Shown here: in pieces, positions 17,136-33,820 of the stretch
Layout of the letters: each line of letters begins with the position of its first letter
Numbering within the stretch: position 1 is the first letter of the stretch
Assembly (NCBI GenBank): GCA_008933025.1
Contig: WBXI01000012.1
Location: 1 to 37,638 of the forward strand
From: Verrucomicrobiota bacterium
Lineage (GTDB): Bacteria > Verrucomicrobiota > Verrucomicrobiia > Limisphaerales > UBA9464
Direction of reading: 5' to 3'
DNA: 37,638 nucleotides
Made by a program: the position numbers and the translations under genes
Notes under the pieces: generated by a model
The model's database searches: none
The model's input: the letters and a program-made list of their open reading frames with translations, nothing else
Told to the model about the DNA's origin: nothing

Positions 17136-19706
17136 ATGATGTCCATGAGTCCGACAACAGAGCGGGAAACCGGAGTCCCTCACGGGATCATCCCGCTCCC
17201 GTGCGTCCGTCCCGAAGCGCGGGGGAAGTTCCTTTTCCTCGGCGGCGTCGAACTGTCGTTGCGGGGCGTGACCTACGGGACGTTCCGCGAGGATCGTCCC
17301 GGCGCGGGATGGCCGGATGTCGAGCGGGTGGAGCGCGATTTCGCGTCCATGGCGGCCCACGGGATCAATTCCGTGCGCGTCTACACCGTGCCGCCCCGCT
17401 GGGTCATGGACCTTGCGCACGCGCATGCCCTGCGGTTGCTCGTCGGTCTTCCGTGGGAACAACACGTCGCCTTCCTGTCGCGGGCCGACGGCATCGAGGC
17501 CGGGTTGCGCGCCGGGGTTCGGGCCTGTGCGGGACATCCCGCCTTGCTGGGATTTGCCATCGGCAACGAGATCCCGGCGTCGGTGGTGCGATGGCACGGG
17601 CGGCGGGCGGTCGAGCGGTTCCTCCACCGCCTGTACCGCGCGGCCAAGGAAGAGGATCCCGGGGCGCTGGTGACCTATGTCAATTACCCGTCCACGGAAT
17701 ACCTGCGGCTGCCGTTCCTGGATTTCTGCGCGTTCAACGTCTATCTGGAGGATCCTTCGTCGCTGGCCGCCTACGTCGCGCGGCTCCACCACGGGGCCGG
17801 CAACCGGCCGCTGTTGCTCGCCGAGGTCGGGCTCGACAGTCGCCGCCATGGACTGGCCGGGCAGGCGTCGGGAGTCGGCGAACAGATCCGGGTGGCCACC
17901 GCGGCCGGATGCGCGGGGGTCTGGGTGTTCGCTTGGACGGACGACTGGAACCGGGGTGGAGAGGATGTCCTGGACTGGGATTTCGGCCTGACGACGCGGG
18001 GGCGCGAGCCCAAGCCGGCGTTGGCGAGCGCGGCCGACGCTTTTCGGGCGGGCCCCGCCGTCGCCGGTGAGCGGTGGCCGCGGATCTCGGTGGTGGTGTG
18101 CACCTACAACGGCTCGCGGACGCTGGGCGAGACGCTCGCCCATCTGGGCACCCTCGGGTATCCCGACTACGAGGTCATCGTCGTCGACGACGGTTCGCGG
18201 GACGGTTGCGGCGAATTGGCGCGGCGCGCGGGGGTCCGGGTGATCCGGACCCCGAACCGGGGGCTCAGTGCGGCGCGCAACACGGGATGGCAGGCGGCGA
18301 CGGGGGAGATCGTCGCCTATCTGGATGACGACGCGTATCCGCATTCGCGCTGGCTACAGCATCTGGCAGTGGCATTCCGGGGCACGCGCCACGCGGCGAT
18401 TGGGGGGCCGAACATCCCGCCGCCGGGCGACGGTTGGGTGGCCGAGTGCGTGGCCAACGCGCCGGGCGGGCCGACCCACGTGTTGTTGACCGACACGGAG
18501 GCCGAGCACATCCCCGGCTGCAACATGGCATTCCGTCGGATCGTTTTGGAGGCGATCGGGGGATTCGACCCGCGGTTCCGGGTGGCGGGCGACGACGTGG
18601 ACGTCTGCTGGAAGATACACGAGCGGGGTTGGACGATCGGGTTCTGCGCGGCGGCGATGGTGTGGCATCACCGTCGGGACACGGTGGGAGGCTATTGGCG
18701 CCAGCAACGCGGGTACGGGCGGGCGGAAGCGCTTTTGGAACGGAAGTGGCCCGCGAAATACAACTCGATTGGCCATGTCCGGTGGAGTGGGCGGGTGTAT
18801 GGACCCGGGATACCGCGGGCGTTGCTGGGCCGGAGCCGGGTGTATCAGGGCGTCTGGGGGACGGCGCCTTTCCAGACCCTGGAAGAGAAGCCGCCGGGCC
18901 GGTTGGCGCTGTTGGCCACGATTCCGGAGTGGTACCTGGTGTGTCTGGGATTGGCGGGGCTCTCGGTCCTCGGTGGCGTCTGGCCGAAACTTTTGCTGGC
19001 GGTTCCCTTGCTGGTGCTGGCGGTCGGACTGATGGCCTGGAGCGCGGCGGCAAACGCGTTCGGGGCGGTGTTCGCCGGCGCTGCCGACGGCGGGCGGGGA
19101 CTGGCCGCCCGCCGCTGGCTCACTGCCTGCCTGCACGTGGTCCAGCCGCTGGCCCGGCTTCAGGGACGGTTTGGCAGCGGACTGCCGTCTCCCTGGCGCG
19201 GCCCCGGCGGCGGGTTCGCGCTGCCACTGCCGACGGAGGCCAGCGTCTGGTCCGAGACATGGCGGGCACCCGAAGCCGCGCTGGAGGCGGTCGCCGCCCG
19301 TCTGGCACGCGCGGGAGTCCCCGCGATGCCCGGCGGCGCCCACGACCGCTGGGACCTCGAGGTCCGTGGCGGATTGATGGGTGCCGCGCGGGTGCTCGCC
19401 CTCGCCGAGGAACACGGCCGGGGACGGCAACTCTTCCGGTTCCAATACTGGCCGCGCTTTTCGCCGGGGGGAATTGCCGTCGTCCTTGTCCTGTCGCTCC
19501 TGGGCCTGGGCGCGGCCGCCGACGGGCAATGGACCGCGACCTATGTCCTGGCCGGGTTGGCGGCGACCCTTTCCGGCCGGATGTCGCTGGAAGCGGGATC
19601 GGCGATGTCGGCGATGCGTCGCGCCATGCGCGTCGACGAGCCCAAGGCGTCGCCGGTGTCCCGGCCCCTCCACGCCCCCCTGCCGCCCGTGGCGGTCGAG
19701 TCATGA
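17136..19706 (+). CDS. Fusion of GH-A type glycosidase-like domain and GT2 glycosyltransferase, membrane-bound
   Basis: This 856-residue protein has three parts. Residues about 20-300 form a TIM-barrel like that of GH2/clan GH-A enzymes, starting LRGVTYGTFRED, with both expected acids: Glu145 in IGNEIP (acid/base position) and Glu230 in LLLAEVGLDS (nucleophile position). Residues about 316-560 form a GT2 domain: ISVVVCTYNGSRTLGETL, EVIVVDDGSRDG, a YLDDDA metal motif, a GDDVD stretch and QQRGYGRAE near its end. Hydrophobic helices at about 588-640 and 780-815 anchor it in the membrane. It begins the cluster and overlaps the next gene by ATGA. The start is uncertain: ATGs at 17136, 17139 and 17145 and one upstream at 17064 are all in frame, none with a strong ribosome site. 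Both activities may work on one membrane-linked glycan; the substrate is unknown. Confidence 0.85.
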   Translation: MMSMSPTTERETGVPHGIIPLPCVRPEARGKFLFLGGVELSLRGVTYGTFREDRPGAGWPDVERVERDFASMAAHGINSVRVYTVPPRWVMDLAHAHALRLLVGLPWEQHVAFLSRADGIEAGLRAGVRACAGHPALLGFAIGNEIPASVVRWHGRRAVERFLHRLYRAAKEEDPGALVTYVNYPSTEYLRLPFLDFCAFNVYLEDPSSLAAYVARLHHGAGNRPLLLAEVGLDSRRHGLAGQASGVGEQIRVATAAGCAGVWVFAWTDDWNRGGEDVLDWDFGLTTRGREPKPALASAADAFRAGPAVAGERWPRISVVVCTYNGSRTLGETLAHLGTLGYPDYEVIVVDDGSRDGCGELARRAGVRVIRTPNRGLSAARNTGWQAATGEIVAYLDDDAYPHSRWLQHLAVAFRGTRHAAIGGPNIPPPGDGWVAECVANAPGGPTHVLLTDTEAEHIPGCNMAFRRIVLEAIGGFDPRFRVAGDDVDVCWKIHERGWTIGFCAAAMVWHHRRDTVGGYWRQQRGYGRAEALLERKWPAKYNSIGHVRWSGRVYGPGIPRALLGRSRVYQGVWGTAPFQTLEEKPPGRLALLATIPEWYLVCLGLAGLSVLGGVWPKLLLAVPLLVLAVGLMAWSAAANAFGAVFAGAADGGRGLAARRWLTACLHVVQPLARLQGRFGSGLPSPWRGPGGGFALPLPTEASVWSETWRAPEAALEAVAARLARAGVPAMPGGAHDRWDLEVRGGLMGAARVLALAEEHGRGRQLFRFQYWPRFSPGGIAVVLVLSLLGLGAAADGQWTATYVLAGLAATLSGRMSLEAGSAMSAMRRAMRVDEPKASPVSRPLHAPLPPVAVES

Positions 19707-20368
19707 GACGCGACGCCAACACCCGGGAACGCGGGGCAAGGGAGCGTCTTCCCGCGTCGGCTTTCACGCTGGTCGAACTTCTGGTCGTCATCGCCATCAT
19801 CGCGATCCTCGCGTCGATGTTGCTGCCCGCGTTGGCGTCGTCGCGCCGCCGGGCGCATTCGGTCAAGTGCCTGTCGAACCTGCGGGGGATGGGCCAGGCG
19901 GTGATGGTGTACTGCGACGACAACGCGGACCAACTGCCGTTCGCGTGGGTCGACAACCCCGATCCGAAGGAGAACAGCTTCTATGCGTTGCTGTGCCCGC
20001 AACTGTTCGGCGCGGGGTTCGACGGCTACGGCGACTTCGAGTCGCGGGTGTACCTTTGTCCGGCGCGGCGCACGGAGCCGTTGCGCCCGGACCAACCCGT
20101 GCGGATCAGCTATGGGATGAACGCGTCCAACGCGGTGGAATTCCCGAAGCCGGCGACACGGCGGTTGGCGGCGGCCCAGGCGGGGAACCCGGCGGCCACG
20201 GTGCTGATGGCGGACATCCAGCACCGGTACAACCACCCGCCGCTGCGGTTTCTGGACGGCAGCCAGGTGGGCTACCGGCACGACGGCCGGGCCAACATCC
20301 TGTTCTACGATGGGCACTGCAGCGCGACCGCCGAGCGCGATACCAACCGCATCTCCCTCGAATTCTAG
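19703..20368 (+). CDS. Prepilin-like H-X9-DG protein inside the glycan cluster
   Basis: This 221-residue protein has a charged leader of about 19 residues, then [16 protein letters not shown] followed by ASMLLPALASSRRRAHSVKC, the prepilin cleavage and membrane-helix motif. Near the end, RHDGRANILFYDGHCS gives a textbook H-X9-DG element. It is translationally coupled to the GH/GT2 gene by ATGA and followed 8 bp later by the methyltransferase gene, so it belongs to the operon. Such pseudopilin-like proteins are inner-membrane proteins that can be released or assembled after peptidase cleavage. Its place in a glycosyltransferase operon suggests it may be a carrier, acceptor or surface partner of the glycan, but that is inference only. 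Confidence 0.85.
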   Translation: MRRDANTRERGARERLPASAFTLVELLVVIAIIAILASMLLPALASSRRRAHSVKCLSNLRGMGQAVMVYCDDNADQLPFAWVDNPDPKENSFYALLCPQLFGAGFDGYGDFESRVYLCPARRTEPLRPDQPVRISYGMNASNAVEFPKPATRRLAAAQAGNPAATVLMADIQHRYNHPPLRFLDGSQVGYRHDGRANILFYDGHCSATAERDTNRISLEF

Positions 20369-20376
20369 GACCCGCC

Positions 20377-21033
20377 ATGGCCCCCGCATCCCTTACCCAA
20401 CGTCCGATGGACGGTTCGAACATCAACACCCCGGAATATTGGGACGGCATCTACCGGCGGGAGTTCGAGTCCGGCCAGCCCGACGCGGGCGGTGGTTCCC
20501 GGGATTATGGCCCGATCCACGACGCCATCCTCGGATTGGTCGCGGACGGCAGCCGGGTTCTGGACGTCGCGTGCGGGCCGGGCCTGCTCTGCCGCAAACT
20601 CCGGTTGCGGCACCCGGCCATCCGGGTGACCGGCGTCGACCATTCCGCCTACCGCATCGGTTGCAACCGGGAGCGGGACCGCGATCTGGGCATCGAATAC
20701 CGGTGCGCGGACATCCGGACCGGACTGGCGTCGCTGGATGGGCGCTTCGACGTGGCCTGCCTGTGCGAGATCCTCGAGCATCTCGACGACCCCGAGCGGG
20801 TGGTGGAAGCGGTGGTGGAACGCTTGAGGCCCGGGGGCCGCCTGGTGGTCTCGTGTCCGCACGACGACGAGATCCCGGATCCCGAGCACGTCCGGGCCTG
20901 GGGACACGACGATCTGTTCCACCTGCTGGCGCGGTTCGGCTGGACGGTCTCGTTCCGCCACTTCGAGCCGCCCTATTTCAGCCCGTGGATGCTGGCCTGG
21001 GTGGATCTGGACCGCGGGGAGGCACGGGCGTGA
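20377..21033 (+). CDS. SAM-dependent class I methyltransferase
   Basis: This 218-residue protein has the methyltransferase fold: NTPEYWDGIYRREFE at the start, motif I VLDVACGPGLL, the acidic ribose-binding turn GVDHS, then FDVACLCEILEHLDDPERVV and LRPGGRLVVSCPHDD. This resembles UbiE/COQ5-like and glycan-modifying methyltransferases; in this setting the target may be a sugar, a lipid carrier or a small acceptor. Its GTGA overlap (21030-21033) couples it to the ABC exporter gene. ATG 20377 is chosen; ATG 20407 is a second in-frame option. The substrate cannot be read from the sequence. Confidence 0.85.
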   Translation: MAPASLTQRPMDGSNINTPEYWDGIYRREFESGQPDAGGGSRDYGPIHDAILGLVADGSRVLDVACGPGLLCRKLRLRHPAIRVTGVDHSAYRIGCNRERDRDLGIEYRCADIRTGLASLDGRFDVACLCEILEHLDDPERVVEAVVERLRPGGRLVVSCPHDDEIPDPEHVRAWGHDDLFHLLARFGWTVSFRHFEPPYFSPWMLAWVDLDRGEARA

Positions 21034-22874
21034 AGGCGATCCCGTTCAAGGATGTGGTGCGCACGGTGCGTTACCTGCGGAACTACCGCGGGTTGGCGGC
21101 GGGGTCGGTGGTGGTGACGTTGTTGTCGTCGCTGGCGGCGTTGCTGGCGCCCTGGCCGTTGAAGATCGTGGTGGACCACGTCCTGGAGCGGCGTCCCCTG
21201 CCGGGCGGCGCGGCGCAATGGTTCGGCCTGTTCGGCACGGAGCCCGGCACGTTGTTGCTGGTGGCCGTCGTGGCGGCCCTCGGCGCGGCGCTGTTGATCA
21301 ACGGGCTCCACGTCGTCGGCAACTACGCCAACACCAAGCTCGAGCAATTCATCACCCTGGATTTCCGCGGCGAACTGTTCCTGCACGCCCAGCGCATGTC
21401 GTTGGCTTTCCACGACCGCCGGCGCTCGGGAATGATCATCTACATGATCAACGGGCAGGGGGATGCCCCGGCCGGGCTGATCATGACCATCCCGCTTCTC
21501 GGCGAGAGCCTGCTCACGCTGGCGGGGATGTTCTGGGTGTCGGTGCGGATCGACGGGAGTCTCGCCCTGGCGTCCCTCGCGGTCGTGCCGTTCCTCTATT
21601 ACTCGGTCGGGTACTACGCCACCCGCATACAGGCCCGCCTGCAACACGTCCGCGGGCTCGAGTCCGAATCGCTGTCGGTCATCCACGAGAGCCTCTCGAT
21701 GATGCGGGTCATCGTTGCCTTCGGCCGCGAGGAGCACGAATACCGGCGGTTCCGGGCCCACACCTCGCGCGCGGTCTCGGAACGGGTCCGGATCACGGTG
21801 CGGCAAACCCTGTTCTCGCTGGTCGTGAACATGACCACCGCGGCGGGATCGGCCGCCGTCCTCGGCCTGGGTGCCCACCACGTGATGCAGGGTCGGCTCA
21901 CCCTCGGCCAGATGCTGGTGGTGATCGCCTACATCGCCGCGATCTACAAACCGCTGGAGATGATTTCCTACACGGTCGGCTCGCTCCAGGACCGGTTCGT
22001 CAACCTGCGCATGACGTTCGACCTTCTGGACACGCGTCCCGACATCGAGGATGCGCCGGGCGCGCGGTCCATCGGGCGTGCGGCGGGCCACGTGGTCTAC
22101 GAAAACGTCCAGTTCAGCTATTCGGGCCGTTCCGACACCCTGCGCGACATCTCGTTCGAGGCCCGCCCCGGCGAGGTCGTCGGCATCGTGGGCCCGACCG
22201 GTGCCGGCAAGAGCACCCTGCTCAGCCTGCTGCCCCGCTTCTACGATGCCATGGGAGGCCGGATCCTGCTCGACGGTGTCGACATCCGGGAACTCACCCT
22301 CCGCTCCCTGCGCGACCAGGTCAGCATCGTGCTGCAGGAGCCGCTGCTGTTCTCGGGCTCGATCGTGGAGAACATCCGCTACGGCCGTCTGGATGCCACC
22401 CGCGACGAGATCGTGGCCGCGGCCAAGGCGGCGAACGCCCATGACTTCATCATGGCGCTGCCGGAGAAGTACGAGACCCAGCTCGGCGAGCGCGGCGCCG
22501 CCATCTCCGGGGGCGAACGCCAACGCATCTCGGTGGCCAGGGCCTTTCTCAAGGACGCGCCGATCCTCATCCTGGACGAGCCGACGTCGTCGGTGGACTC
22601 GAAGACGGAGGCCGTGATCCTCGACGCACTGGACCGCCTCATGGTCGGGCGGACCACGTTCATGATCGCCCACCGGCTCTCGACCCTGCACCAGGCGGAC
22701 CGGATCCTGGTGCTCAACCACGGCCGCATCGTGGAACAAGGCACGCCCGCGGAGTTGCTGGAGAGCCAGGGATTGTACCGCCAGTTGCACGACGCCCAGA
22801 TGGCACGGGCACGGCGCCGCGCGGCGGCAAAGAACCCGGCGGCTGCCGGCGATGGCGTCCCCATCCCCGCATGA
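21030..22874 (+). CDS. MsbA-type ABC exporter (fused permease and ATPase)
   Basis: This 614-residue half-transporter probably works as a homodimer. The N-terminal half has about six membrane helices (from YLRNYRGLAAGSVVVTLLSS onward). The ATPase half is complete: Walker A GPTGAGKST near 386-394, Q-loop VLQEPLL, signature SGGERQ near residue 492, Walker B ILILDEPTSS and the switch His in IAHRLSTL. The family includes MsbA and PglK, which flip lipid A or lipid-linked oligosaccharides, and also drug and peptide exporters. Surrounded by glycosyltransferases, a flippase for a lipid-linked sugar is the best guess. It starts with GTG at the GTGA overlap with the methyltransferase. Confidence 0.9.
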   Translation: MKAIPFKDVVRTVRYLRNYRGLAAGSVVVTLLSSLAALLAPWPLKIVVDHVLERRPLPGGAAQWFGLFGTEPGTLLLVAVVAALGAALLINGLHVVGNYANTKLEQFITLDFRGELFLHAQRMSLAFHDRRRSGMIIYMINGQGDAPAGLIMTIPLLGESLLTLAGMFWVSVRIDGSLALASLAVVPFLYYSVGYYATRIQARLQHVRGLESESLSVIHESLSMMRVIVAFGREEHEYRRFRAHTSRAVSERVRITVRQTLFSLVVNMTTAAGSAAVLGLGAHHVMQGRLTLGQMLVVIAYIAAIYKPLEMISYTVGSLQDRFVNLRMTFDLLDTRPDIEDAPGARSIGRAAGHVVYENVQFSYSGRSDTLRDISFEARPGEVVGIVGPTGAGKSTLLSLLPRFYDAMGGRILLDGVDIRELTLRSLRDQVSIVLQEPLLFSGSIVENIRYGRLDATRDEIVAAAKAANAHDFIMALPEKYETQLGERGAAISGGERQRISVARAFLKDAPILILDEPTSSVDSKTEAVILDALDRLMVGRTTFMIAHRLSTLHQADRILVLNHGRIVEQGTPAELLESQGLYRQLHDAQMARARRRAAAKNPAAAGDGVPIPA

Positions 22875-22875
22875 C

Positions 22876-25383
22876 ATGAGGGAATCCATCGTCATCCTGG
22901 GTTTCCTGAGCCACTTCCCCGTCGCGGGCGTGGCTTGGCAGACACTGCACTATCTCGAGGGATTCCGGCGGTTGGGTTACGACGTGTACTACGTGGAGGC
23001 CCACGGTTGCACCCCGACCAAGGTGATGCGCCGGCACGACGACGACGGGGTGGCACTGGCGGCGGACCACATCGCGGGGGTGTTGGGGCGGTTTGGCTTC
23101 GGCGACCGCTGGGCCTACCACGCGCTCTACGAGGAACGGACCTTCGGCAGGACGGCGTCGCAGCTCCGCGACATCTATCGGTCCGCGTCGCTGATCATCA
23201 ACCTCCACGGCAGCCATCTGCCGACCCCGGAAATGGCGGCGACCAACCGGTTGGTCTACCTCGAGACCGATCCGGTCGACGTGGAGATCGATCTCCACAA
23301 CGGGCGGCGGGAGACGATCGATTACCTGGCGCCGCACTGCGCCTTCTTCACCTACGGGGAGAATCTGGGCCGGCCGGATTGCGGGGTGCCGTTGCCGGAG
23401 CGGTTCGTGTTCCGGCGGACACGGCAGCCGGTGATCCTGGATTTTTGGTCCGGGAGCGGACGGGGCGAGGGCGGGGCTTTCACCACGGTCGGGAACTGGC
23501 GCCAGCCGTGGCGCGAGGCGCGTCTGGGCGACCAGGTGTATGTCTGGAGCAAACACCACGAGTTCCTGAAGGTCCTCGACCTGCCGCGCCGCGTCCCGCG
23601 TCCCCTCGAACTGGCGCTGGCCAGCGTGGAGCCGGACGACCGGCGGATGCTCGAGTCGCACGGCTGGCGCGTGCGGTCGGCGGCCGAATTCTCCCATGAT
23701 CTCGACGGCTACCGATCCTATATCGGCGGGTCGCGGGGCGAATTCACGGTGGCCAAGGACCAGAACGTCCGGTTGCGCAGCGGATGGTTCAGCGACCGGG
23801 CGGCGACCTATCTGGCGGCGGGTCGGCCGGTGATCACCCAGGATACCGGGTTCGGAAACATCCTCCCGACCGGCGAGGGTCTCTTTGGCTTCGGCACGAT
23901 GGACGACATCGTGGAGGCGGTCGGCCGGATCGAGGGGGATTACGAGCGGCACCGGCGGGGCGCGGCGCGGCTCGCGCGGGAATGGTTCGCGCACGACGTG
24001 GTGTTGACCCGGATGCTCCGGGATCTGGGGATGGCGTGGCCCGCGTTGTCGCGGGCGCAGTCGGAGGCCCGGGCCCGGGCGAGCAAGGCGCGGGCGGGGG
24101 CATCGACGATCCCGCCGGGGCTCCTGTTGACGCCGGTGGGCCGTTGGCCGACGCGTTTGCCCGAGGAGACCCTTGCGGTCGCCGCGACGTTGCCCGTGCC
24201 GCCGTCCCTCCCGGAGCGACCGGGCCCGGTCATGGATCCCGGCCCGCGGACCAGCGTGGTGATCGTGGTCCGCGACGCCTTGCCCTATACCCGGCTTTGC
24301 ATCGCATCGTTGCTCGTGGAGGGGTGGGAGGACGGGGACGAACTCATCGTGGTGGACAACGCGTCGGGGGAACCGACCCGGGAATACCTCGGGGAACTGA
24401 AGGCGGCGCATCCGTGGGTCCAGGTGGTTTCCAACGAACGCAACGAGGGTTTCGCGGCGGCCAACAACCGGGGAATGGAATTGGCGTCGGGCACGGTGTT
24501 CGTGCTGCTGAACAACGACACGGTACTGCCGCCGGGTTGGAAGCAGACGCTGGCGGGGCACCTGCGCGACCCGGGTGTCGGCCTGGTGGGTCCGGTGACC
24601 AACCGCACCTGCAACGAGGCGCAGATCGACGTGCCGTACCGGACCCACGGCGAAATGCTGGCGTTCGCCGCGGACCGGGCGGCGATCCGGCGGGGCGGGG
24701 CGGGGGACATCCCGATGCTGGCCATGTTCTGCGTGGCCATGCGGCGCGACGTCTGGCTGCGGGTGGGACCCCTCGACGAGCGTTTCGAGATCGGGATGTT
24801 CGAGGACGACGACTACGCGCGCCGGGTCCGCGGGGCGGGATTGCGGGTGGTGTGCGCGGAAGACGCGTTCGTGCATCATTTCGGCCAGGCCTCGCTCGGG
24901 GAACTCTGCGCGACCGGCGACTACGACCGCGTGCTCGCGTCCAACCGCGAGCGGTTCGAGAGCAAATGGGGCGAGGCGTGGAAGCCGCACGGGCGCCGGC
25001 TGACGCCGGAATACGAGGCGGTCCGCACCGGTGCCCGCCATCTGGCCTTGGCGCACGTGCCGGTCGGTTCCCCGGTGGTGGTGATCAGCAAGGGCGACGA
25101 GGAACTCGTCCGTCTCGAAGGCCGTCCGGGCTGGCATTTCCCGCAGGGGTCCGACGGTGGCTATTCGGCGATCTATCCGGCGGACGGCGACGGGGCGGTG
25201 GCGCAGTTGGAATCGCTGCGGGCGTGCGGGGCGCGGTTCCTCCTGGTGCCACGGACGGCGGCGTGGTGGCTCGAACATTACGGCGCGCTGCGGGAACACC
25301 TGGGGCGCTTCGCCTCCCTGGTGGCCCGGGACGATCTGGCGGGATCGTTGTACGCGCTGGGGAAAGGAGACGGCCATGCCTAG
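22876..25383 (+). CDS. Double glycosyltransferase (GWFSDR-type GT plus GT2) with C-terminal WHFPQ module
   Basis: This 835-residue protein has three parts. Residues 1 to about 385 are a GT-B-like domain, recognised by FRRLGYDVYYVEAHG and by GWFSDRAATYLAAGRPVITQ with DTGFGNILPTGEGL near residues 303-330; the same domain makes up the whole proteins at 33817 and 36184. Residues about 458-690 are a GT2 domain: TSVVIVVRDALPYTRLCIAS, ELIVVDNAS, NEGFAAANNRG, VLLNNDTVLPPGW and an FEDDDYARRVRGAG motif. Residues about 730-835 are a module also found in three other proteins here (WHFPQGSDGGYSAIYPADG, LVPRTAAWWLEHY). ATG 22876 begins the conserved part (MRESIVILGF); ATG 22852 is an in-frame alternative that overlaps the exporter gene. 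It likely adds two sugars in turn. Confidence 0.85.
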   Translation: MRESIVILGFLSHFPVAGVAWQTLHYLEGFRRLGYDVYYVEAHGCTPTKVMRRHDDDGVALAADHIAGVLGRFGFGDRWAYHALYEERTFGRTASQLRDIYRSASLIINLHGSHLPTPEMAATNRLVYLETDPVDVEIDLHNGRRETIDYLAPHCAFFTYGENLGRPDCGVPLPERFVFRRTRQPVILDFWSGSGRGEGGAFTTVGNWRQPWREARLGDQVYVWSKHHEFLKVLDLPRRVPRPLELALASVEPDDRRMLESHGWRVRSAAEFSHDLDGYRSYIGGSRGEFTVAKDQNVRLRSGWFSDRAATYLAAGRPVITQDTGFGNILPTGEGLFGFGTMDDIVEAVGRIEGDYERHRRGAARLAREWFAHDVVLTRMLRDLGMAWPALSRAQSEARARASKARAGASTIPPGLLLTPVGRWPTRLPEETLAVAATLPVPPSLPERPGPVMDPGPRTSVVIVVRDALPYTRLCIASLLVEGWEDGDELIVVDNASGEPTREYLGELKAAHPWVQVVSNERNEGFAAANNRGMELASGTVFVLLNNDTVLPPGWKQTLAGHLRDPGVGLVGPVTNRTCNEAQIDVPYRTHGEMLAFAADRAAIRRGGAGDIPMLAMFCVAMRRDVWLRVGPLDERFEIGMFEDDDYARRVRGAGLRVVCAEDAFVHHFGQASLGELCATGDYDRVLASNRERFESKWGEAWKPHGRRLTPEYEAVRTGARHLALAHVPVGSPVVVISKGDEELVRLEGRPGWHFPQGSDGGYSAIYPADGDGAVAQLESLRACGARFLLVPRTAAWWLEHYGALREHLGRFASLVARDDLAGSLYALGKGDGHA

Positions 25384-26755
25384 GTGCAGCATCGTCATCC
25401 CGGTTTACAACCGTGCCGTGCTCACGGCCCAGTGCCTGGGACTCCTCGCGCCGCGGGACGACGTCGAGGTGATCGTGGTGGACGACGGGTCCAAGGACTG
25501 GACGCGGAGCCTGCTGGCGGCCCATGGCGACCGGATCCGCGTGGTGACCCACGGCAGGAACGAGGGCTTCGCCCGCAGTTGCAACGACGGGGCGGCGGTC
25601 GCCACCGGCGAGTTCCTGGTATTCCTGAACAACGACACCCTGCCGCGGACCGGGTGGCTCGACGCGTTGGTCGACCATGCGGACGCGCATCCGCGCGCCG
25701 CGGTGGTGGGAGCGAAGCTGTTGTTCCCGAACAACACCATCCAGCACGCGGGCGTGGCCGTCTGCCAGGACGGTTATCCCCGGCACCTCTATGCCGGCTT
25801 CCCGGCGAACCACCCCGCGGTCAGCCGCTCCCGCCCGTTCCAGATCGTGACCGGGGCCTGCATGCTGGTCCGCCGCCGGGTGTTCGAGGATGCCGGTGGA
25901 TTCGATCCCTCCTATATCAACGGATTCGAGGATGTCGACCTGTGCCTCCGGCTCGGGGTGGCGGGCCACGAGGTCCACTACTGCTGCGAGTGCGTGGTCG
26001 AGCATCTCGAGTCGGTTTCGCCCGGGCGGCATGCCCGCGACCGGCACAACGTGGACCTGTACCGCGGGCGCTGGATGGGCAGGGTCCGGCCCGACGACCT
26101 CGGGTACTACATCGCGGACGGCCTTCTGCGGATCCACTACGAGGGGCATTACCCGGTGGGCATCGAGGCGGCACCGGAGTTGGCGGTGGTCGGCGCGGAG
26201 GCTTCCCCGGGCGGGATGGAGACCGAACTGCGCGACCGAAGCCGCGAGGTGGCGGACCTGCTCCGGGAGAACGTGAAACTGCGGGCCGAGCTGGGACGCC
26301 GGTCGCCCGACTCGGAAGTGCTGGCCTACGACCGTTTGCGCCAGGAACTCCGCAAACTCGTCTGCGAGTCGGTGCCGGAGGGCGCGTCGGTGCTGGTCGC
26401 GACCAAGGGCGACGGCGCGCTGCTGCGGATGGGCAATCGTGCGGGCGGGCATTTTCCCCAAGGCCCGGGCGGCGTCTACAGCGGCTACCATCCTGCGGAC
26501 AGCGAGTCGGCGATCCGACATCTGGAAGCGCTGCGGTGCGCCGGCGCGCGCCATCTCGTGGTGCCCGAGACGATGCGGTGGTGGCTGGACCATTACCAGG
26601 GTCTGGCGCTGCACCTCGCGGACACGGCCGTCGTGGTGGCGCAACGCCCGGGGGTCGGCGTCGTGTACGCGCTCGGCGGCATGGCCGCGCCGCGGCCGAC
26701 GGCGACCGCGGCCCCCCAACTTTCCGATCCGACAACCGAAACTGTCACAACCTAA
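25376..26755 (+). CDS. GT2 glycosyltransferase with C-terminal WHFPQ module
   Basis: This 459-residue protein starts at an ATG preceded by GGAGA at good spacing and overlaps the previous gene by 8 bp. Residues 2 to about 250 are a GT2 domain: CSIVIPVYNRAVLTAQCL, VEVIVVDDGSKDW, NEGFARSCNDGA, FLNNDTLPRTGW, then INGFEDVDLCLRL with the catalytic-type ED. A charged, probably coiled-coil linker follows (about 275-315). The last part, about 325-430, is the shared module, here with GHFPQGPGGVYSGYHPADS and a WWLDHY motif; the usual Trp before HFPQ is replaced by Gly. The final 25 residues are Pro/Thr-rich. A cytoplasmic sugar transferase acting on the cluster product is likely. Confidence 0.88.
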   Translation: MPRCSIVIPVYNRAVLTAQCLGLLAPRDDVEVIVVDDGSKDWTRSLLAAHGDRIRVVTHGRNEGFARSCNDGAAVATGEFLVFLNNDTLPRTGWLDALVDHADAHPRAAVVGAKLLFPNNTIQHAGVAVCQDGYPRHLYAGFPANHPAVSRSRPFQIVTGACMLVRRRVFEDAGGFDPSYINGFEDVDLCLRLGVAGHEVHYCCECVVEHLESVSPGRHARDRHNVDLYRGRWMGRVRPDDLGYYIADGLLRIHYEGHYPVGIEAAPELAVVGAEASPGGMETELRDRSREVADLLRENVKLRAELGRRSPDSEVLAYDRLRQELRKLVCESVPEGASVLVATKGDGALLRMGNRAGGHFPQGPGGVYSGYHPADSESAIRHLEALRCAGARHLVVPETMRWWLDHYQGLALHLADTAVVVAQRPGVGVVYALGGMAAPRPTATAAPQLSDPTTETVTT

Positions 26756-26873
26756 CAAAACCATGTTCGCCAAGCCCGCCTGCCGTGTCCGCGGACTCCC
26801 GAAGCGAGGCCAAAAGCCCGCGCTTCCCGCCCTCCCCACGGCCTGCGCGCCCGGAACCGAAACCCCAGACGCC

Positions 26874-28646
26874 ATGAACAAGTCCATGATGCGGAAACCG
26901 ACCCTGGCGGCGGTACCCAAACCCCAACCCCGCCCCGATCCCGCGGAGGACCTCGTGCGCCGGAACGCCGACACGATCGACGTGCTGATGGCACGGTTGG
27001 AACGCGAATCCGAGCAGCGCGAGGAGATGTGGGCCACGATCCACGAACTCGAGCTGTCGCGCTCGACCGGAGCCTCCGTGGATCCCGGGACCGCGGCCCA
27101 CACGATCCGCATGCTTCGGTACCGCTCGATGGTGCGCGAGATGGTGCCGCGGGGAGCGACGGTGGCGGTGGCGAGCGACGGCGACCCGGCATGGCTGGAC
27201 CTGCCGTCGCGGACGTCGTGGCATTTCCCGCGCGACGCCGCGGGCAACCACACGCCGGGTCCGCTCGCGTGCGGGTTGTCCGCCCTGGTGCATCTGGAAG
27301 CCCTCCGGGGTTCCGGGGCGGAATTCCTCGTTTTGCCCGCGGCGACCGCCCCGATCCTCGAGGCCCTTCCGGAATTCCGGCAACATCTCGAGTCCCGGTT
27401 CCGACGGCTCCGGCAGGACGACGTCGGGACGGTCTACGGGTTGCAGACCGTGGTCGGCGGGAACGTGGCGACAGGCGACGGCGGCCTGGCCCGGGCATTC
27501 TCGGAATGCGAGGAGCACGTCGGCCGCGAACCCTCCATCCTGGACTGGGACACGGGGCTTGGTCTCGCCGCATGCCATCCGCAACGGAACGTCTTCGACG
27601 CGCGCATGGAGGCCGGTGGATTGCCCTATCTGGATGCGAGCGTGGACGTCGTCGTGCTGCGCTCCAAGGCGCCCCAGCACCTCGCCGAGGCGCGGCGGGT
27701 GGCGGCGGTGGCGTTCGTACGGGTGGAAACCCGGCCCGGGGAGACGGGCCCGCGCGGGATCGAGATCGACTGGAAGGCCCCGAGGACGGCCCCGGCCTAT
27801 CCGAGTTCCTCGATCGTCATCCCCACCTACAACGGTTGGAAGATCCTGAAGAATTGCCTCGTGGCGCTGGCGGAGACGCTGCCGGCGGACGCCGCGGTGG
27901 AGATCGTGGTGGTGGACGACGGCTCGAGCGACGGGACGCTGGACCGTCTCCGGGAATGGGCGCGCCGCGAACCCCGGCTCCGGCCGGTGGCGAGCCCGCG
28001 CAACGGCGGGTTCATCGCCGCCTGCAACCGGGGGGCGAAGGCCGCCACGGGAGACGTGCTGGTCTTCCTCAACAACGACACGCTGCCATTGCCGGGCTGG
28101 CTGGAACCGCTTCTCCGCGGCATCCGCGACTGGCCCGACGCCGGCGCCATCGGCGGCAAGCTCGTCTATCCGGACGGCCGGTTGCAGGAGGCGGGCGGCA
28201 TCATCTTCTCGGACGCCTCGGGCGCGAACTTCGGGCGCAACGACCCGCGCCCCGACGCGCCGCTCTACAACTTCGTGCGTCCCGTGGACTATTGTTCCGG
28301 CGCGCTGCTGGCCACGAGCCGCGCCCTGTTCAACGAGTTGGGCGGTTTCGACGCCTATTATTCCCCGGCGTACTACGAGGACACGGACTATTGCTTCCGG
28401 GTCCGCAAACACGGGCTCCGCGTCTATTACCAACCGGAAAGCCAGATCGTCCACCTCGAGGGAGCCACCTCGGGAACGGACCTTGCGAGCGGCGTGAAGA
28501 GCTACCAGGTGGTGAACCGGGGACGGTTCACCAAACGCTGGGAACCGTTCATGCAACAGCAACCGACGGCCCCCAAACGGTGGGATTTCGGCGTGATGCA
28601 CGGACTCGCCGTCGGCGGAAACATCATCCGGACGGAGGTCGCATGA
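26874..28646 (+). CDS. GT2 glycosyltransferase with N-terminal WHFP module and methyltransferase-like remnant
   Basis: This 590-residue protein begins with a Pro-rich stretch and a probable coiled coil (about 20-65), then a diverged copy of the shared module (about 82-190: GATVAVASDGDPA, SWHFPRDAAGN, LVHLEALRGSGAEFLVLP). Residues about 218-290 look like part of a methyltransferase: SILDWDTGLGLAA, LPYLDASVDVVVLRS, with the first glycine of motif I replaced. Residues about 313-560 are a GT2 domain: SIVIPTYNGWKILKNCL, EIVVVDDGSSDG, NGGFIAACNRGA, VFLNNDTLPLPGW and YYEDTDYCFRV. ATG 26874 is preferred; ATG 26763, in frame, would add 37 Pro/Arg-rich residues. It follows a 118-bp gap and overlaps the next gene by ATGA. 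The methyltransferase-like part is probably inactive. Confidence 0.82.
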   Translation: MNKSMMRKPTLAAVPKPQPRPDPAEDLVRRNADTIDVLMARLERESEQREEMWATIHELELSRSTGASVDPGTAAHTIRMLRYRSMVREMVPRGATVAVASDGDPAWLDLPSRTSWHFPRDAAGNHTPGPLACGLSALVHLEALRGSGAEFLVLPAATAPILEALPEFRQHLESRFRRLRQDDVGTVYGLQTVVGGNVATGDGGLARAFSECEEHVGREPSILDWDTGLGLAACHPQRNVFDARMEAGGLPYLDASVDVVVLRSKAPQHLAEARRVAAVAFVRVETRPGETGPRGIEIDWKAPRTAPAYPSSSIVIPTYNGWKILKNCLVALAETLPADAAVEIVVVDDGSSDGTLDRLREWARREPRLRPVASPRNGGFIAACNRGAKAATGDVLVFLNNDTLPLPGWLEPLLRGIRDWPDAGAIGGKLVYPDGRLQEAGGIIFSDASGANFGRNDPRPDAPLYNFVRPVDYCSGALLATSRALFNELGGFDAYYSPAYYEDTDYCFRVRKHGLRVYYQPESQIVHLEGATSGTDLASGVKSYQVVNRGRFTKRWEPFMQQQPTAPKRWDFGVMHGLAVGGNIIRTEVA

Positions 28647-30181
28647 GGACGCGTCGCGCCTTGGTGATGGCCCCGGTCATGCCGGAATTCGACCGCGAAA
28701 GCGGATCCCGGCGGATCCACGACCTCCTGATCTTCCTCAGGGACGCGGGCTGGGCGGTCACGTTCGTGGCCCAGCGCGCGCCCGACGGCGAGCGCTACCG
28801 CCGCCTCCTCCAGCAGGCCGGCATCGCCACCTTCGTGGGATTCGACGATGTGACCGACCTCATCATGAGCGGCGGCCACTACGACCTCGCGCTCTTCGAA
28901 TTCTGGAACATCGCGGAACAACACCTCGCCTTCATCCGGCGGGCCTCGCCCCAGACCCGCGTGGTCGTGGACAGCATCGACCTCCACTTCGTCCGCCATG
29001 CCCGCCGGGTCTTCCTTCCGACGACCCCGGGAGGGCAGGGCGGCCTGCTCGACAACGCGTACGGCGCGGAAATGGTCCGCGAACTCAACATCTATGCCGC
29101 GTCGGATGCCGTGCTGGCGGTGTCGGAGAAGGAAGCGGGCATGATCAACGATCTCCTCGGCGATTCGAACGCGGCCCGCTGCGTTCCCGACTGCGAGGAA
29201 TTCGCCGCGTCCCCGGTCCCCTGCGCGGAGCGCAAGGGAATCCTGTTCCTCGGCAGCTTCCGCCACACGCCCAACATCGATGCCATCGACTTCTTTTGCC
29301 GGCAGGTCGCGCCGCTCGTCGACCCGCGCGTGCTGGAGGCCGATCCGTTGCAGGTGGTCGGCACCGGCATGGACGACACCATCCGGGACATCGCGCGCAC
29401 CGTGCCCCATTCGCGGGCGATCGGTTGGGTGCCGTCGGTGGTGCCCTACATCGAGCGTGCCCGGATCATGGTGGTCCCGCTTCTCTACGGTGCCGGAACC
29501 AAGCGGAAGCTGGTCCAGTCCCTGATGATCGGCACGCCGACGGTTTCGACGACGGTCGGGATCGAGGGTCTGGGACTGAAGCACCGCAAGCACGCGTTGG
29601 TGGCCGACGATCCCCGGGAGTTCGCCCGGCACGTCGAGAGCCTCTGCCGCGACACCGCGCTCTGGGGCCGCATCGCGGCCAGCAGTCGCGAACACATCAT
29701 GCCCGTCCATGGCCGCGAGGCGGCGCGCCGGCGTTTTCTGGACGCGATCGAGGCGGTGATGGCGCGCGAGCCGAAAAAGCCGGAACTGGCGAGTCCGGAC
29801 AAGGACCACAACTACCGCATCAGCCTGCACTACCAGCGTCTGGCCCATCGTGTCCGCGAGGCGATCGCCTCGCACGTTCCGGAAGGCGCGACGGTGTTGG
29901 TGGCGAGTCGCGGCGATCCCGCGTTCGTGCAGGTGGTCGGCCGCCAGGGATGGCATTTCCCGCAGGACGAGGGCGGGGGCTATGCCGGTTACCACCCGGC
30001 GGACAGTGCCGCGGCGATCGTGCATCTCGAGCAGTTGAGGGCCCGCGGCGGGAACTACTTCGTGCTGCCGGGGACTGCGTTCTGGTGGCGGACGTTCTAC
30101 GGGGAATTCCAGAGGCACCTCGACGAGACCTACCAACGCGTGACCGGCGGCGAGGACGCCATCATCTACCGGTTGAACTGA
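28643..30181 (+). CDS. GT4-like glycosyltransferase with C-terminal WHFPQ module
   Basis: This 512-residue protein starts at the ATGA overlap, with GGAGG placed well upstream. Residues 1 to about 375 are a GT-B fold of the GT4 kind: FDRESGSRRIHDLLIFL, VVDSIDLHFVRHARR, SDAVLAVSEKEAGMI, ILFLGSFRHTPNIDAI, then GAGTKRKLVQSLMIGTPTVS and TVGIEGLGL, which form the nucleotide-sugar site. After a short linker, the shared module occupies about residues 392-512 and is the cleanest copy in the window (WHFPQDEGGGYAGYHPADS, HLEQLRARGGNYFVLP, FWWRTFYGEFQRHL). Retaining transfer from a nucleotide sugar is expected. It is the last of four successive module-bearing glycosyltransferases. Confidence 0.88.
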   Translation: MRTRRALVMAPVMPEFDRESGSRRIHDLLIFLRDAGWAVTFVAQRAPDGERYRRLLQQAGIATFVGFDDVTDLIMSGGHYDLALFEFWNIAEQHLAFIRRASPQTRVVVDSIDLHFVRHARRVFLPTTPGGQGGLLDNAYGAEMVRELNIYAASDAVLAVSEKEAGMINDLLGDSNAARCVPDCEEFAASPVPCAERKGILFLGSFRHTPNIDAIDFFCRQVAPLVDPRVLEADPLQVVGTGMDDTIRDIARTVPHSRAIGWVPSVVPYIERARIMVVPLLYGAGTKRKLVQSLMIGTPTVSTTVGIEGLGLKHRKHALVADDPREFARHVESLCRDTALWGRIAASSREHIMPVHGREAARRRFLDAIEAVMAREPKKPELASPDKDHNYRISLHYQRLAHRVREAIASHVPEGATVLVASRGDPAFVQVVGRQGWHFPQDEGGGYAGYHPADSAAAIVHLEQLRARGGNYFVLPGTAFWWRTFYGEFQRHLDETYQRVTGGEDAIIYRLN

Positions 30182-30218: not shown

Positions 30219-33200
30219 ATGAAATACCCGACCCATTCACCGGCCCGCGCGACGCGGGCCGGGCTGCTCGCCGTTTTCCTGCTGCTCGCGGCGGCCCTTC
30301 GCGCCACCACGTTGCCGCCCGGCTTCGCGGAAGCCCGCCTTCCCCATGCCCTGTCGTTTCCCGCGACCATCGCCGTTGCCCCGGACGGGCGGGTGTTCGT
30401 GGGCGAACGCATCGGGCGGTTGCGGATCTTCAAGAACGACCAATTGCTGCCGACCCCGTTCGTGACGCTGAACGTCGAGAGCGCCGGCGAACGCGGCCTC
30501 GTGGGCGTGGCGTTGGACCCGAACTTCGCGTCCAACCAATATGTCTACGTCTATTACACGGCGACGACGCCGACCATCCACAACCGGATCAGCCGCTTCA
30601 CCGCCGGCGGCGACGTCGCCGTCCCGGGCAGCGAGGTGGTCCTGATGGACCTGGACGACCTCGTCGCGGACCAGCACAACGGGGGGACCCTGCGGTTCGG
30701 GTCCGACGGGATGCTCTATGTCGCGAGCGGGGACAATTATTACTCCCCGAATGCCCAGAGCCTCCAGACCGTGAAGGGGAAGATCCTGCGGATCCGTCCG
30801 GACGGGACCATCCCGTCGGACAACCCGTTCTATCTGGCGACGACCGGCATCAACCGGGCGATCTGGGCGCTGGGGTTGCGGAATCCCTATACGTTCGACA
30901 TCCAGCCGGGGACCGGGCGGATGTTCGTCAACGACGTCGGCGACATCAAATGGGAGGAGATCAACGAGGGCATGGCGGGGGCGAACTTCGGGTGGCCGGA
31001 GACCGAGGGGCCAACCGCGGACCCGCGTTTCGAGGCGCCGTTGCTGGCGTATGGCCATGGACCCGGCGACACGTCGGGATGCGCGGTCACCGGCGGTGCG
31101 TTCTACAACCCGGCCAACCCGCAGTTCCCGGCATCGTACCTCGGCAAGTACCTGTTCATCGACTACTGCAACGGCTGGATCCGCATGCTGGATCCCGGGG
31201 ACAATTCGGTGGTGCCGTTCGCGACGGGCATCGGGGTGCCGAACACGGTGCAGGTGGCGATCGCGCCCGACGGCGCCCTCTATTACCTGACGGTGGCCGA
31301 CGCGCAGGCCGTCGGGGGGATGTTCAAGATCACCTATACAGGCAGCCTGGCACCCCAGATCGGGACCCAACCGGTGGGCAAGACCGTCACGGTGGGCAAT
31401 GCGGCGAGTTTCTCGGTGACCGCCTATGGAAGCCCGACCCTGGGCTTCCAGTGGCAATCGGGCGGCTTGAACATCCCGGGTGCCACCTCGGCGACCTATA
31501 CCACGCCGCCGACCACCCTTGCGGACAACGGAAGCCAATACCGTTGCGTGGTGACCAACGCGCTGGGGACGACGACCAGCGCCGTCGCGATCCTGGCCGT
31601 CACCACCAAAAACGCGCCGGTCCCGACGATCACCCAGCCTTTGCCCGGGGCGTCGTATGCGTCACTGGACGTGGTGTCCTTCGCGGGGCAGGCGACGGAC
31701 GCGGAGGAAGGGCCGATGCCGCCATCGGCCCTCGTCTGGGACGTGGTGTTCCACCACAACGGCCACTCGCATCCCTTCATGGATCCCGTCGGCGGGATGG
31801 CCGATGGCACGTTCACGGTCCCGGACACCGGCGAGGTTTCCACCGACGTCTATTTCCACGTGACCCTGACGGCGACGGATTCGCAGGGCATGAGCGCGAG
31901 CAGCTCGGTCGACGTGCATCCCCGTCTGTCGCAGATCAACCTGTTGACCGTGCCCGGTGGTTTGCAGGCAACGCTCGAGGGCGCGCCGGTGACGACGCCG
32001 GCCTCTTCCGCGAGCGTGATCAACATGCAGCGGTTGATCGGTGCCGTGACGCCGCAGACCAACAACAACGTGGTCTATGACTTTGTGGGTTGGTCCGACG
32101 GCGGGGCCGCGCAGCATCTGGTCGCGACACCCGCGGTGCCGACGACCTATATAGCGACCTACCAGATCCGGACCAACGGCACGCTGTCGGCGAGTCCGAA
32201 TCCGGTGACGGTGACCGACGGCACGGGGCTTGGGGCGACGACGCTGACCTGGACGTCGACGGGGACCAGTGCCGTCGAGGTCCACGTGAACTCGCCGGGC
32301 GGACCGTTGTTCTCGCAGTCCGCAGCCGGCGCCTGGATGGCGACCACCGGCAAGTGGGTGGGCGACGGGACGACGTTCTATCTGCAGAACGTGTCGGGAG
32401 GTTTGCCCTTGGTGGCCGCGAACACCCTGGCGACGGCCACCGTGAACATCCGCGCCGGGACCATCGCCGCGAATCCGAACCCGGTGGCGGTCTCCGACGG
32501 GAGCGGGCTCGGCGCGACGCAATTGACCTGGAACACGACCGGCACCGCCAACGTGGAGGTCCACGTGGGTTCGCCCTCGGGACCGCTGTTCTCGCGCTCG
32601 ACCGCGGGCGGTTGGACGGCCACCACCGGCAAGTGGGTGAGCAACGGCATGGTGTTCTATCTGCAGGACGTGACCGGGGGCCAGCCACTCACGGCCGCGA
32701 ACACGCTCGCGTCGGTTCAGGTCGGCGTCGTCAACCGGGGAGGTTCGTTGGCCGCGGCTCCGAATCCCATCGTCGTCACCGACGGCACGGGGTTGGGCGC
32801 CACGACGCTGACCTGGAACACGACGGGAACCGCCTTGGTGGAGGTTCGGGTGGGTTCGCCCACCGGGCCGTTGTTCTCGCGTTCGCTCACCGGGGCGTGG
32901 ACGGCCACCACCGGCAAATGGGTGAGCAACGGCATGGTGTTCTATCTCCAGGACATCTCGGGTGGTTTGCCCCTGACCGCCGCCAACACCCTGGCAACCG
33001 TCCAGGTCGGGGTGGTCGCCCGGTCGGGTTCGATCGCCGCGAGTCCCAATCCGGTCACGGTCACCGACGGCACCGGGCTGGGCGTGACCACTCTCACCTG
33101 GACCAGCGTCGGGACCAAGGCGGTGGAAGTCCGCGTCGGATCTCCCTCGGGTTCGTTGTTCTCGCGTTCGGGTCCGGGGGGGTGGACGGCGACGACCGGG

Positions 33201-33305
33201 AAATGGGTGGGCAACGGGACCGTGTTCTATCTCCAGGACGTCTCCGGTGGCCTGCCCCTCACCGCCGCCAACACGCTCGGATCGGTCACGGTGACGATCC
33301 GCTGA
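30219..33305 (+). CDS. Secreted PQQ-type sugar dehydrogenase-like protein with Ig-like domain and four tandem modules
   Basis: This 1028-residue exported protein has a signal peptide (GLLAVFLLLAAALRA, cleavage near LRA). Residues about 30-370 match the glucose/sorbosone dehydrogenase propeller: APDGRVFVGERIGRLRIF, ERGLVGVALDPNFASN, QHNGGTLRFGSDGMLYVASG and AIWALGLRNPYTFD. An Ig-like domain follows (about 380-465), then a beta domain with HHNGHSHPF (about 468-570) and a linker region. Residues 654-1028 are four near-identical modules of 93-95 residues. It is 37 bp after a GT gene and 62 bp before a lipoprotein that carries a related module. It may oxidise a sugar of the exported glycan or bind it; PQQ ligands and activity are not proven. 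Confidence 0.85.
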   Translation: MKYPTHSPARATRAGLLAVFLLLAAALRATTLPPGFAEARLPHALSFPATIAVAPDGRVFVGERIGRLRIFKNDQLLPTPFVTLNVESAGERGLVGVALDPNFASNQYVYVYYTATTPTIHNRISRFTAGGDVAVPGSEVVLMDLDDLVADQHNGGTLRFGSDGMLYVASGDNYYSPNAQSLQTVKGKILRIRPDGTIPSDNPFYLATTGINRAIWALGLRNPYTFDIQPGTGRMFVNDVGDIKWEEINEGMAGANFGWPETEGPTADPRFEAPLLAYGHGPGDTSGCAVTGGAFYNPANPQFPASYLGKYLFIDYCNGWIRMLDPGDNSVVPFATGIGVPNTVQVAIAPDGALYYLTVADAQAVGGMFKITYTGSLAPQIGTQPVGKTVTVGNAASFSVTAYGSPTLGFQWQSGGLNIPGATSATYTTPPTTLADNGSQYRCVVTNALGTTTSAVAILAVTTKNAPVPTITQPLPGASYASLDVVSFAGQATDAEEGPMPPSALVWDVVFHHNGHSHPFMDPVGGMADGTFTVPDTGEVSTDVYFHVTLTATDSQGMSASSSVDVHPRLSQINLLTVPGGLQATLEGAPVTTPASSASVINMQRLIGAVTPQTNNNVVYDFVGWSDGGAAQHLVATPAVPTTYIATYQIRTNGTLSASPNPVTVTDGTGLGATTLTWTSTGTSAVEVHVNSPGGPLFSQSAAGAWMATTGKWVGDGTTFYLQNVSGGLPLVAANTLATATVNIRAGTIAANPNPVAVSDGSGLGATQLTWNTTGTANVEVHVGSPSGPLFSRSTAGGWTATTGKWVSNGMVFYLQDVTGGQPLTAANTLASVQVGVVNRGGSLAAAPNPIVVTDGTGLGATTLTWNTTGTALVEVRVGSPTGPLFSRSLTGAWTATTGKWVSNGMVFYLQDISGGLPLTAANTLATVQVGVVARSGSIAASPNPVTVTDGTGLGVTTLTWTSVGTKAVEVRVGSPSGSLFSRSGPGGWTATTGKWVGNGTVFYLQDVSGGLPLTAANTLGSVTVTIR
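32178..33302 (+). repeat. Four tandem copies of a 93-95 residue coding repeat
   Basis: Copies start at 32178, 32457, 32742 and 33027, with periods of 279, 285 and 285 bp. Each copy reads about ASPNPVTVTDGTGLG, TTLTW, VEVRVGSPSGPLFSRS, WTATTGKWV, VFYLQD and GGLPLTAANTLA. The last two copies are close enough in protein and DNA to suggest recent duplication. Each copy is likely a small beta-sandwich. Confidence 0.9.
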
Positions 33306-33367: not shown

Positions 33368-33820
33368 ATGGAACCTTCGCAAATGACAAAGAACCAGCAA
33401 CAGGACGCGACCCAGCCGGGAATCCCGCGGCGGGGCAACGGGTCGCTCCCGACACGGATGGCCGGCATGGTGCTCGGATTGGTGGCATGCCTTTTCGGCA
33501 CCGGTTGCCGGCCCGGCGCGCCGCAGACGGGACCGGGAAAAGGTCCGTTCATCACGGCGCATCCCAACCCGGTGCCGGCCGGCAAAGGGGCCGGTGTCAC
33601 CACCATCGAATGGGACACCGGGAGCGACGAGGCCGGGGAGGTCTATGTCGCGGTCGACGGCGGCGAGGAGAAACTGTTCGCGGAACATGCCCGCGGCTCG
33701 GTGGCGGCGGACTGGATCCAAGACGGGCAGGGCTACGAGTTCAGGCTCTATGCCACGCCCGACCGCGCGAAGCTCCTGGGTTCGGTCAAGGTCGCGCGCG
33801 CAAAGCCGAGGACCCCATGA
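33368..33820 (+). CDS. Small lipoprotein with one SPNPV-type module
   Basis: This protein is 150 residues from ATG 33368 (145 from the in-frame ATG at 33383; neither has a clear ribosome site). It has a charged N-terminus, a hydrophobic stretch MVLGLVACLFG and a cysteine in FGTGC that fits a lipoprotein cleavage site loosely. The mature part is essentially one module: FITAHPNPVPAGKGAGVTTI, EVYVAVDGGEEKLFAEHARG, WIQDGQGYEFRLYA and LLGSVKVAR. This is the same layout as the four tandem modules of the dehydrogenase-like protein directly upstream, though much diverged. Its stop overlaps the next gene by ATGA. A periplasmic or surface partner of the dehydrogenase or of the glycan is a fair guess; the lipid anchor is inferred. 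Confidence 0.7.
   Translation: MEPSQMTKNQQQDATQPGIPRRGNGSLPTRMAGMVLGLVACLFGTGCRPGAPQTGPGKGPFITAHPNPVPAGKGAGVTTIEWDTGSDEAGEVYVAVDGGEEKLFAEHARGSVAADWIQDGQGYEFRLYATPDRAKLLGSVKVARAKPRTP

Follow-up and report, generated by a model that had tools for sequence, protein, structure and literature searches.

A module on four consecutive glycosyltransferases of a Verrucomicrobiota bacterium and its kinship to the soluble tail of GT-C enzymes

Why would four different glycosyltransferases (GTs), encoded by consecutive genes, carry copies of one and the same part? The question was raised by a DNA stretch of 37,638 nucleotides from a Verrucomicrobiota bacterium (GenBank assembly GCA_008933025.1, contig WBXI01000012.1), the whole of which is called the window below. 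Each of the four enzymes contains one copy of a module of about 125 residues, and a preliminary description of this DNA had suggested that the shared part serves a common partner, scaffold or acceptor. Sequence comparison makes it nearly certain that the module shares ancestry with the soluble domain at the C-terminus of PMT_2-type GT-C glycosyltransferases.

The four copies and their GT-C relatives

The four copies were all found essentially at the places first proposed for them, on the forward strand (Table 1), and they proved homologous. Profiles built from three copies recovered the one left out with E values of 9.5e-34, 3.4e-37, 1.4e-24 and 6e-37, and matched neither the other open reading frames (ORFs) of the window nor shuffled ORFs. 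Pairwise alignments of 119-123 residues showed 33-45% identity, and 25 columns are invariant among the four. Searching the whole genome with P0004 returned the other three copies (3.6e-27, 1.2e-25 and 2.6e-18) and no fifth one.

We have scored 16 motif residues, namely SGD, HFPQ, YPAD, P, WWLEHY and H as they occur in copy 1. The motif list drawn up in the preliminary description did not hold throughout. Copies 1, 2 and 4 have all 16 residues, and copy 1 reads AIYPADG; copy 3 (10/16) has TPGPLACG and APILEALP in place of GYHPADS and WWLxHY. The counterparts of copy 3 in two related Verrucomicrobia likewise lack both motifs. A recent tandem duplication was ruled out: in related Verrucomicrobia each copy has a counterpart with which it clusters (support 95-100), apart from the other three. 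The copies are thus old parts of their proteins.

No convincing relative of the module was obtained from Pfam, NCBIfam or PDB sequence searches, and literature searches with the motifs returned nothing relevant. The module is a new, unnamed domain family, and no well-characterised enzyme domain of unrelated function matched it. The few weak Pfam/NCBIfam matches were isolated and not family-wide (acVLRF1 at 0.0017 in 2/47 members, DUF5818 at 1e-4 in 1/47); acVLRF1 and 4-hydroxyphenylpyruvate dioxygenase were dropped as candidates, since other members gave them no support.

The relationship to GT-C enzymes came from profiles. The module profile matched the C-terminus of a PMT_2 protein (G167) at 1.8e-21, the Pfam PMT_2 match of this protein being 9e-17, together with about 30 of its relatives, down to 4e-24. 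A separate search in another phylum led to a protein of the same architecture (L123, PMT_2 at 2.2e-18), and tails that are of this kind but more divergent occur on further GT-C-like membrane proteins of Acidobacteriota. When 47 modules were compared with 29 GT-C tails, profile against profile, the probability was 99.9 and the E value 5e-31. Reciprocally, the GT-C-tail profile recovered all four window modules (1.3e-21, 3.2e-18, 1.3e-14 and 7.3e-12). Matches of this profile to designed TIM barrels in the PDB (E down to 8e-10) were judged spurious, as they extend over no more than one helix-strand unit of idealised repeats. This kinship was missing from the preliminary description, whose interpretation is supported in part.

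The tails of PMT_2 (PF13231)-type enzymes from Verrucomicrobiota and Acidobacteriota share with the module the elements GDP, GWHF, Y.G.P, AI..LE.LR..GA, WWL.YY and IY.L, and like the module they have no Pfam model of their own. They read HFLE and GNPxDS where the module reads HFPQ and GYHPADS. They also terminate a membrane enzyme, presumably on its extracytoplasmic side, whereas the window module sits on soluble GT2, GT4 and GT-B-like proteins devoid of an attached GT-C membrane domain; it is the module that is related to the tail, and the window proteins are not GT-C enzymes. The GT-C tails are more divergent among themselves, which hints at a transfer from GT-C enzymes to soluble enzymes, although the split has weak support (69).

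Predicted fold, conservation and fusion partners

AlphaFold models of copies 4 and 3 were obtained with a predicted local distance difference test (pLDDT) of 89-90 and a predicted template modelling (pTM) score of 0.84. Both follow the same order of elements (helix, strand, short helix, strand, helix, strand, helices, two strands) and describe a soluble alpha/beta Rossmann-like domain. The concern that the copies might be structurally unlike was thereby tested in part, and these two are alike in the predicted order. Foldseek returned nothing under E 0.001 against the PDB or against viral structures. In second-look PDB lists, GT-C soluble domains came first for both models: DPY19 (Z 7.1 and 6.3), AglB (6.0 and 5.7), AftD (5.5-5.9) and ArnT (5.0-5.4), with STT3 also among them. 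Identity was 6-14% for the C-terminal luminal domain of DPY19 and the globular domains of AglB and STT3, and the match to the periplasmic domain of ArnT (Arnt_C, PF18583; PDB 5F15/5EZM) extended over 109-111 residues of chain 448-568. The acceptor motif WWDYG of STT3 is located elsewhere in the fold, and an equivalence with the WW of the module was dropped for this reason.

Modules of four phyla and most architectures have nearly the same residues at the 16 motif positions. Conservation was highest after strands 1, 2 and 4, where the segments averaged 2.5, 2.8 and 3.0 bits of information; the first helix averaged 1.3 bits and the other segments measured 1.3-2.3 bits. In Rossmann-like sheets, the loops after the strands are the usual ligand edge. 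Five adjacent doublets (L014, L015, L087, L088 and L131) each combine an intact copy (14-16/16) with a decayed one (4-8/16), a pattern seen in all five scored. Modules fused to PIG-L, sulfotransferase and some GT2 domains have HFPQ changed, mostly to a PFxE type, and keep WW.

The range of fusion partners is broad. It comprises GT2, GT4, GT-B-like plus GT2, Sulfotransfer_3, Sulfotransfer_4, PIG-L deacetylase and PMT_2, as well as an architecture of Methyltransf_11 with a GT-B-like domain. The module may also precede GT2 or lie between domains, and stand-alone module proteins exist as singles and doublets (L013, L131). A Chloroflexi cluster (L010, 2766-8902; also L007, 1362-2720) contains tandem genes ending in the module, the three scanned being of the Sulfotransfer_3 type, and in Acidobacteriota (L125, 1492-2607 on the minus strand; L122; L126) PIG-L deacetylase and Sulfotransfer_4 carry a divergent module type without HFPQ. 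The donors of these families differ, being nucleotide sugar, lipid-phosphate sugar, 3'-phosphoadenosine-5'-phosphosulfate, S-adenosylmethionine (SAM) and water. As the fused enzymes share no donor, the common element can be the glycan acceptor. The sulfotransferase, PIG-L, methyltransferase and GT-C fusions strengthened the earlier suggestion of a common partner, scaffold or acceptor. On balance, acceptor binding is favoured over docking.

Similar segments in other phyla, as noted in the preliminary description, were found in genomes of Actinomycetota, Chloroflexota and Acidobacteriota. When species genomes of bacteria and archaea were scanned, 18 loci emerged, distributed over Verrucomicrobia, Chloroflexi, Actinomycetota and Acidobacteria, with several copies on adjacent genes in most larger loci; the plasmid scan gave no module match. 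The module was present in 4/388 Verrucomicrobiota, 4/296 Actinomycetota, 5/199 Acidobacteriota and 4/251 Chloroflexota genomes, counts that include a few marginal matches and centre genomes, so overall prevalence is low (about 1-2% of genomes). Four genomes (G185, G521, G1074 and G1110) gave marginal matches with E about 7e-4, which we attributed to chance. One genome of the window's own order contains 11 module matches; among its copies, one is truncated with an in-frame TGA (L035, 1456-1725), likely a decaying gene.

A proposed acceptor-holding role and its alternatives

We propose that the module is a non-catalytic acceptor-holding domain, derived from the GT-C soluble tail or sharing ancestry with it, and we would give this proposal an even chance of being correct. 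The domain would have left its GT-C membrane enzyme and become joined to soluble members of a glycan pathway. Its conserved post-strand loops (S-x-GD, HFPQ...GYxxGYHPADS and P...WWLxHY) would grip the oligosaccharide under construction, or its lipid carrier, and offer it to whichever catalytic domain is attached, so that every enzyme of the cluster would recognise the same acceptor. The neighbouring ABC exporter may later carry this acceptor out of the cell. For copy 3, with part of the site lost, a structural role or another binding partner would be expected. Ligand binding, the nature of the ligand and the role in export are all inferred.

Comparable arrangements are known. The C-terminal carbohydrate-binding domain of EmbC is likewise a soluble GT-C tail, in which two conserved Trp residues bind the acceptor and are required for activity (PMC3044687). 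Its lectin-like fold with two subdomains is unlike that of the module, and this solved precedent is one of function, no homology being shown here. The C-terminal domain of Wzt, a carbohydrate-binding module of O-antigen ABC transporters with a beta-sandwich fold, also represents glycan recognition fused to a part of an export pathway, although it sits on the transporter and the module on glycosyltransferases. Carbohydrate-binding modules at large are non-catalytic domains that bind glycans and are joined to carbohydrate-active enzymes; the module is joined to such enzymes likewise, and may share the other two features.

Several points weigh against this proposal. Part of the proposed site is missing from copy 3. 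The structural Z-scores are modest, all below 8, with SAM methyltransferases close behind, and for this reason the GT-C link is carried by sequence and not by structure alone. No window protein or module member scored over the Arnt_C (PF18583) cut-off, and no GT-C tail protein scanned matched this model, which had no match over cut-off in six genomes either; module and GT-C relatives thus both differ from ArnT in this respect. A protein interface might also give such a conservation pattern. Finally, the GT-C tails should lie outside the membrane, as expected from the homology to ArnT, and the window glycosyltransferases look cytoplasmic, so the domain would have to act on both sides. Such a distribution would be easier to reconcile with a glycan, or one linked to a lipid, than with a partner protein.

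A protein partner is what the strongest alternative invokes. If the copies associated with each other as dimers or a ring, they could gather the pathway enzymes into a single complex, whose site might be the ABC exporter or the glycoside hydrolase (GH)/GT2 synthase. We regard such docking as a serious rival, though a somewhat unlikely one. It would account for the co-occurrence of copies in one cluster in most of the examined genomes with the intact type, for the stand-alone module proteins and for the retention of the fold by copy 3 without the full motif. The doublets of intact and decayed copies are what a pseudo-dimer would give, but they also fit a design of one site plus a spacer. Moreover, the most conserved positions lie mostly at the usual ligand edge, and the GT-C tails and a sulfotransferase cluster have the domain in settings that lack the other partners.

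The position of the module directly after the catalytic domain in most proteins would also suit a structural cap that has no ligand of its own and stabilises the attached domain or shields its active site. This appears improbable, as the module also occurs ahead of GT2 (copy 3), between domains and alone, and surface-loop motifs of a cap need no such invariance across unrelated catalytic domains. That the conserved Ser/Asp/His/Trp set forms the catalytic site of an unrecognised enzyme is very improbable: H53, D40, H66 and H107 are strongly conserved, and the fold is Rossmann-like with SAM methyltransferases among the weaker matches, but no enzyme family matched in sequence, PIG-L, sulfotransferase and several GT2 fusions have other residues at the His and Ser/Asp positions yet retain WW, and the module, of about 125 residues, has no full cofactor domain.

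Gene neighbourhood and implications

The arrangement first described for the four proteins, with the module C-terminal in three and ahead of the GT2 domain in the fourth (26763-28646), was confirmed (Table 1). Their reported folds stood for GT2 (three proteins) and GT4 (one), both recognised by Pfam. The first protein (22876-25383) has a further domain at its N-terminus, for which Pfam gave no match; the designation of this domain as GT-B-like relies on likeness to the neighbouring GT-B-like proteins and relatives, which themselves match PF13524 weakly. By hydropathy, three of the four proteins have no membrane segment and the fourth has one weak segment.

Table 1. Module copies, module-bearing proteins and neighbouring genes in the window
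Feature	Positions	Strand	Remarks
Module copy 1	24982-25362	+	C-terminal in GT-B-like plus GT2 protein; 16/16 motif residues
Module copy 2	26297-26680	+	C-terminal in GT2 protein; 16/16 motif residues
Module copy 3	27069-27446	+	N-terminal to GT2 domain; GYHPADS and WWLxHY lost; fold predicted intact
Module copy 4	29798-30178	+	C-terminal in GT4 protein; 16/16 motif residues
GT-B-like domain, GT2 and module	22876-25383	+	alternative start upstream at 22852
GT2 and module	25376-26755	+	
Module and GT2	26763-28646	+	start inferred from gene caller
GT4 and module	28643-30181	+	start 28643 inferred from ATGA overlap; gene caller's choice 28667
GH2-like TIM barrel and GT2 synthase-like protein	17136-19706	+	
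SAM-dependent methyltransferase	20407-21033	+	between synthase and exporter
ABC exporter (ABC_membrane, ABC_tran), MsbA/ChvA-like	21030-22874	+	below all curated cut-offs
GT-B-like protein without module	33817-35046	+	weak PF13524, below cut-off; homologues in other module loci
GT-B-like protein without module	36184-37347	+	weak PF13524, below cut-off; homologues in other module loci

Homologues of the exporter (47-85% identical) occur in 11 of the 20 larger module loci, and those of the GH/GT2 protein (41-56% identical) in seven plus one partial, in both cases including other phyla. The GH/GT2 family is wider than the module (14/195 Verrucomicrobiota, mostly without it). A second GH/GT2 protein, 44% identical, is encoded in the same genome (G000:C8:6547-7701), and no module copy was found on its contig. 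The cluster product is likely an exported, enzymatically decorated glycan, and the GH/GT2-exporter pair may resemble the cyclic-glucan pair NdvB/NdvA.

Other genes of the window were also recorded. A soluble glucose/sorbosone dehydrogenase with an Ig domain (30219-33305) ends in four near-identical repeats of about 95 residues (NPxxVxDGxGLGxTxLTW...TGKWV...FYLQ), and a lipoprotein-like protein (33383-33820) has a single related unit. Pseudopilin-like proteins are encoded upstream of the GH/GT2 gene (14296-15063) and just after it (19703-20368), the latter with homologues beside the module clusters L071 and L078. A large protein (4157-7051) that combines VWA and GATase1-like domains with a few membrane segments lies in a row with other membrane proteins.

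The GT-C-derived domain might even be a portable tag of an exported-glycan pathway, a single type of acceptor reader borne by many of its enzymes (glycosyl-, sulfo- and methyltransferases and a deacetylase). One glycan on its carrier would then be modified repeatedly in a programmed manner, and the pairing of intact with decayed copies would set the order of the enzymes. We consider this extension doubtful. From sequence, it is difficult to tell which acceptor a GT2 or GT4 enzyme will use. If the module were a detachable acceptor reader common to the enzymes of a pathway, it would reveal which genes go together in the glycan clusters of little-studied soil bacteria, GT-C soluble tails would gain a testable function, and the domain might become a tool for steering glycosyltransferases to a chosen acceptor.

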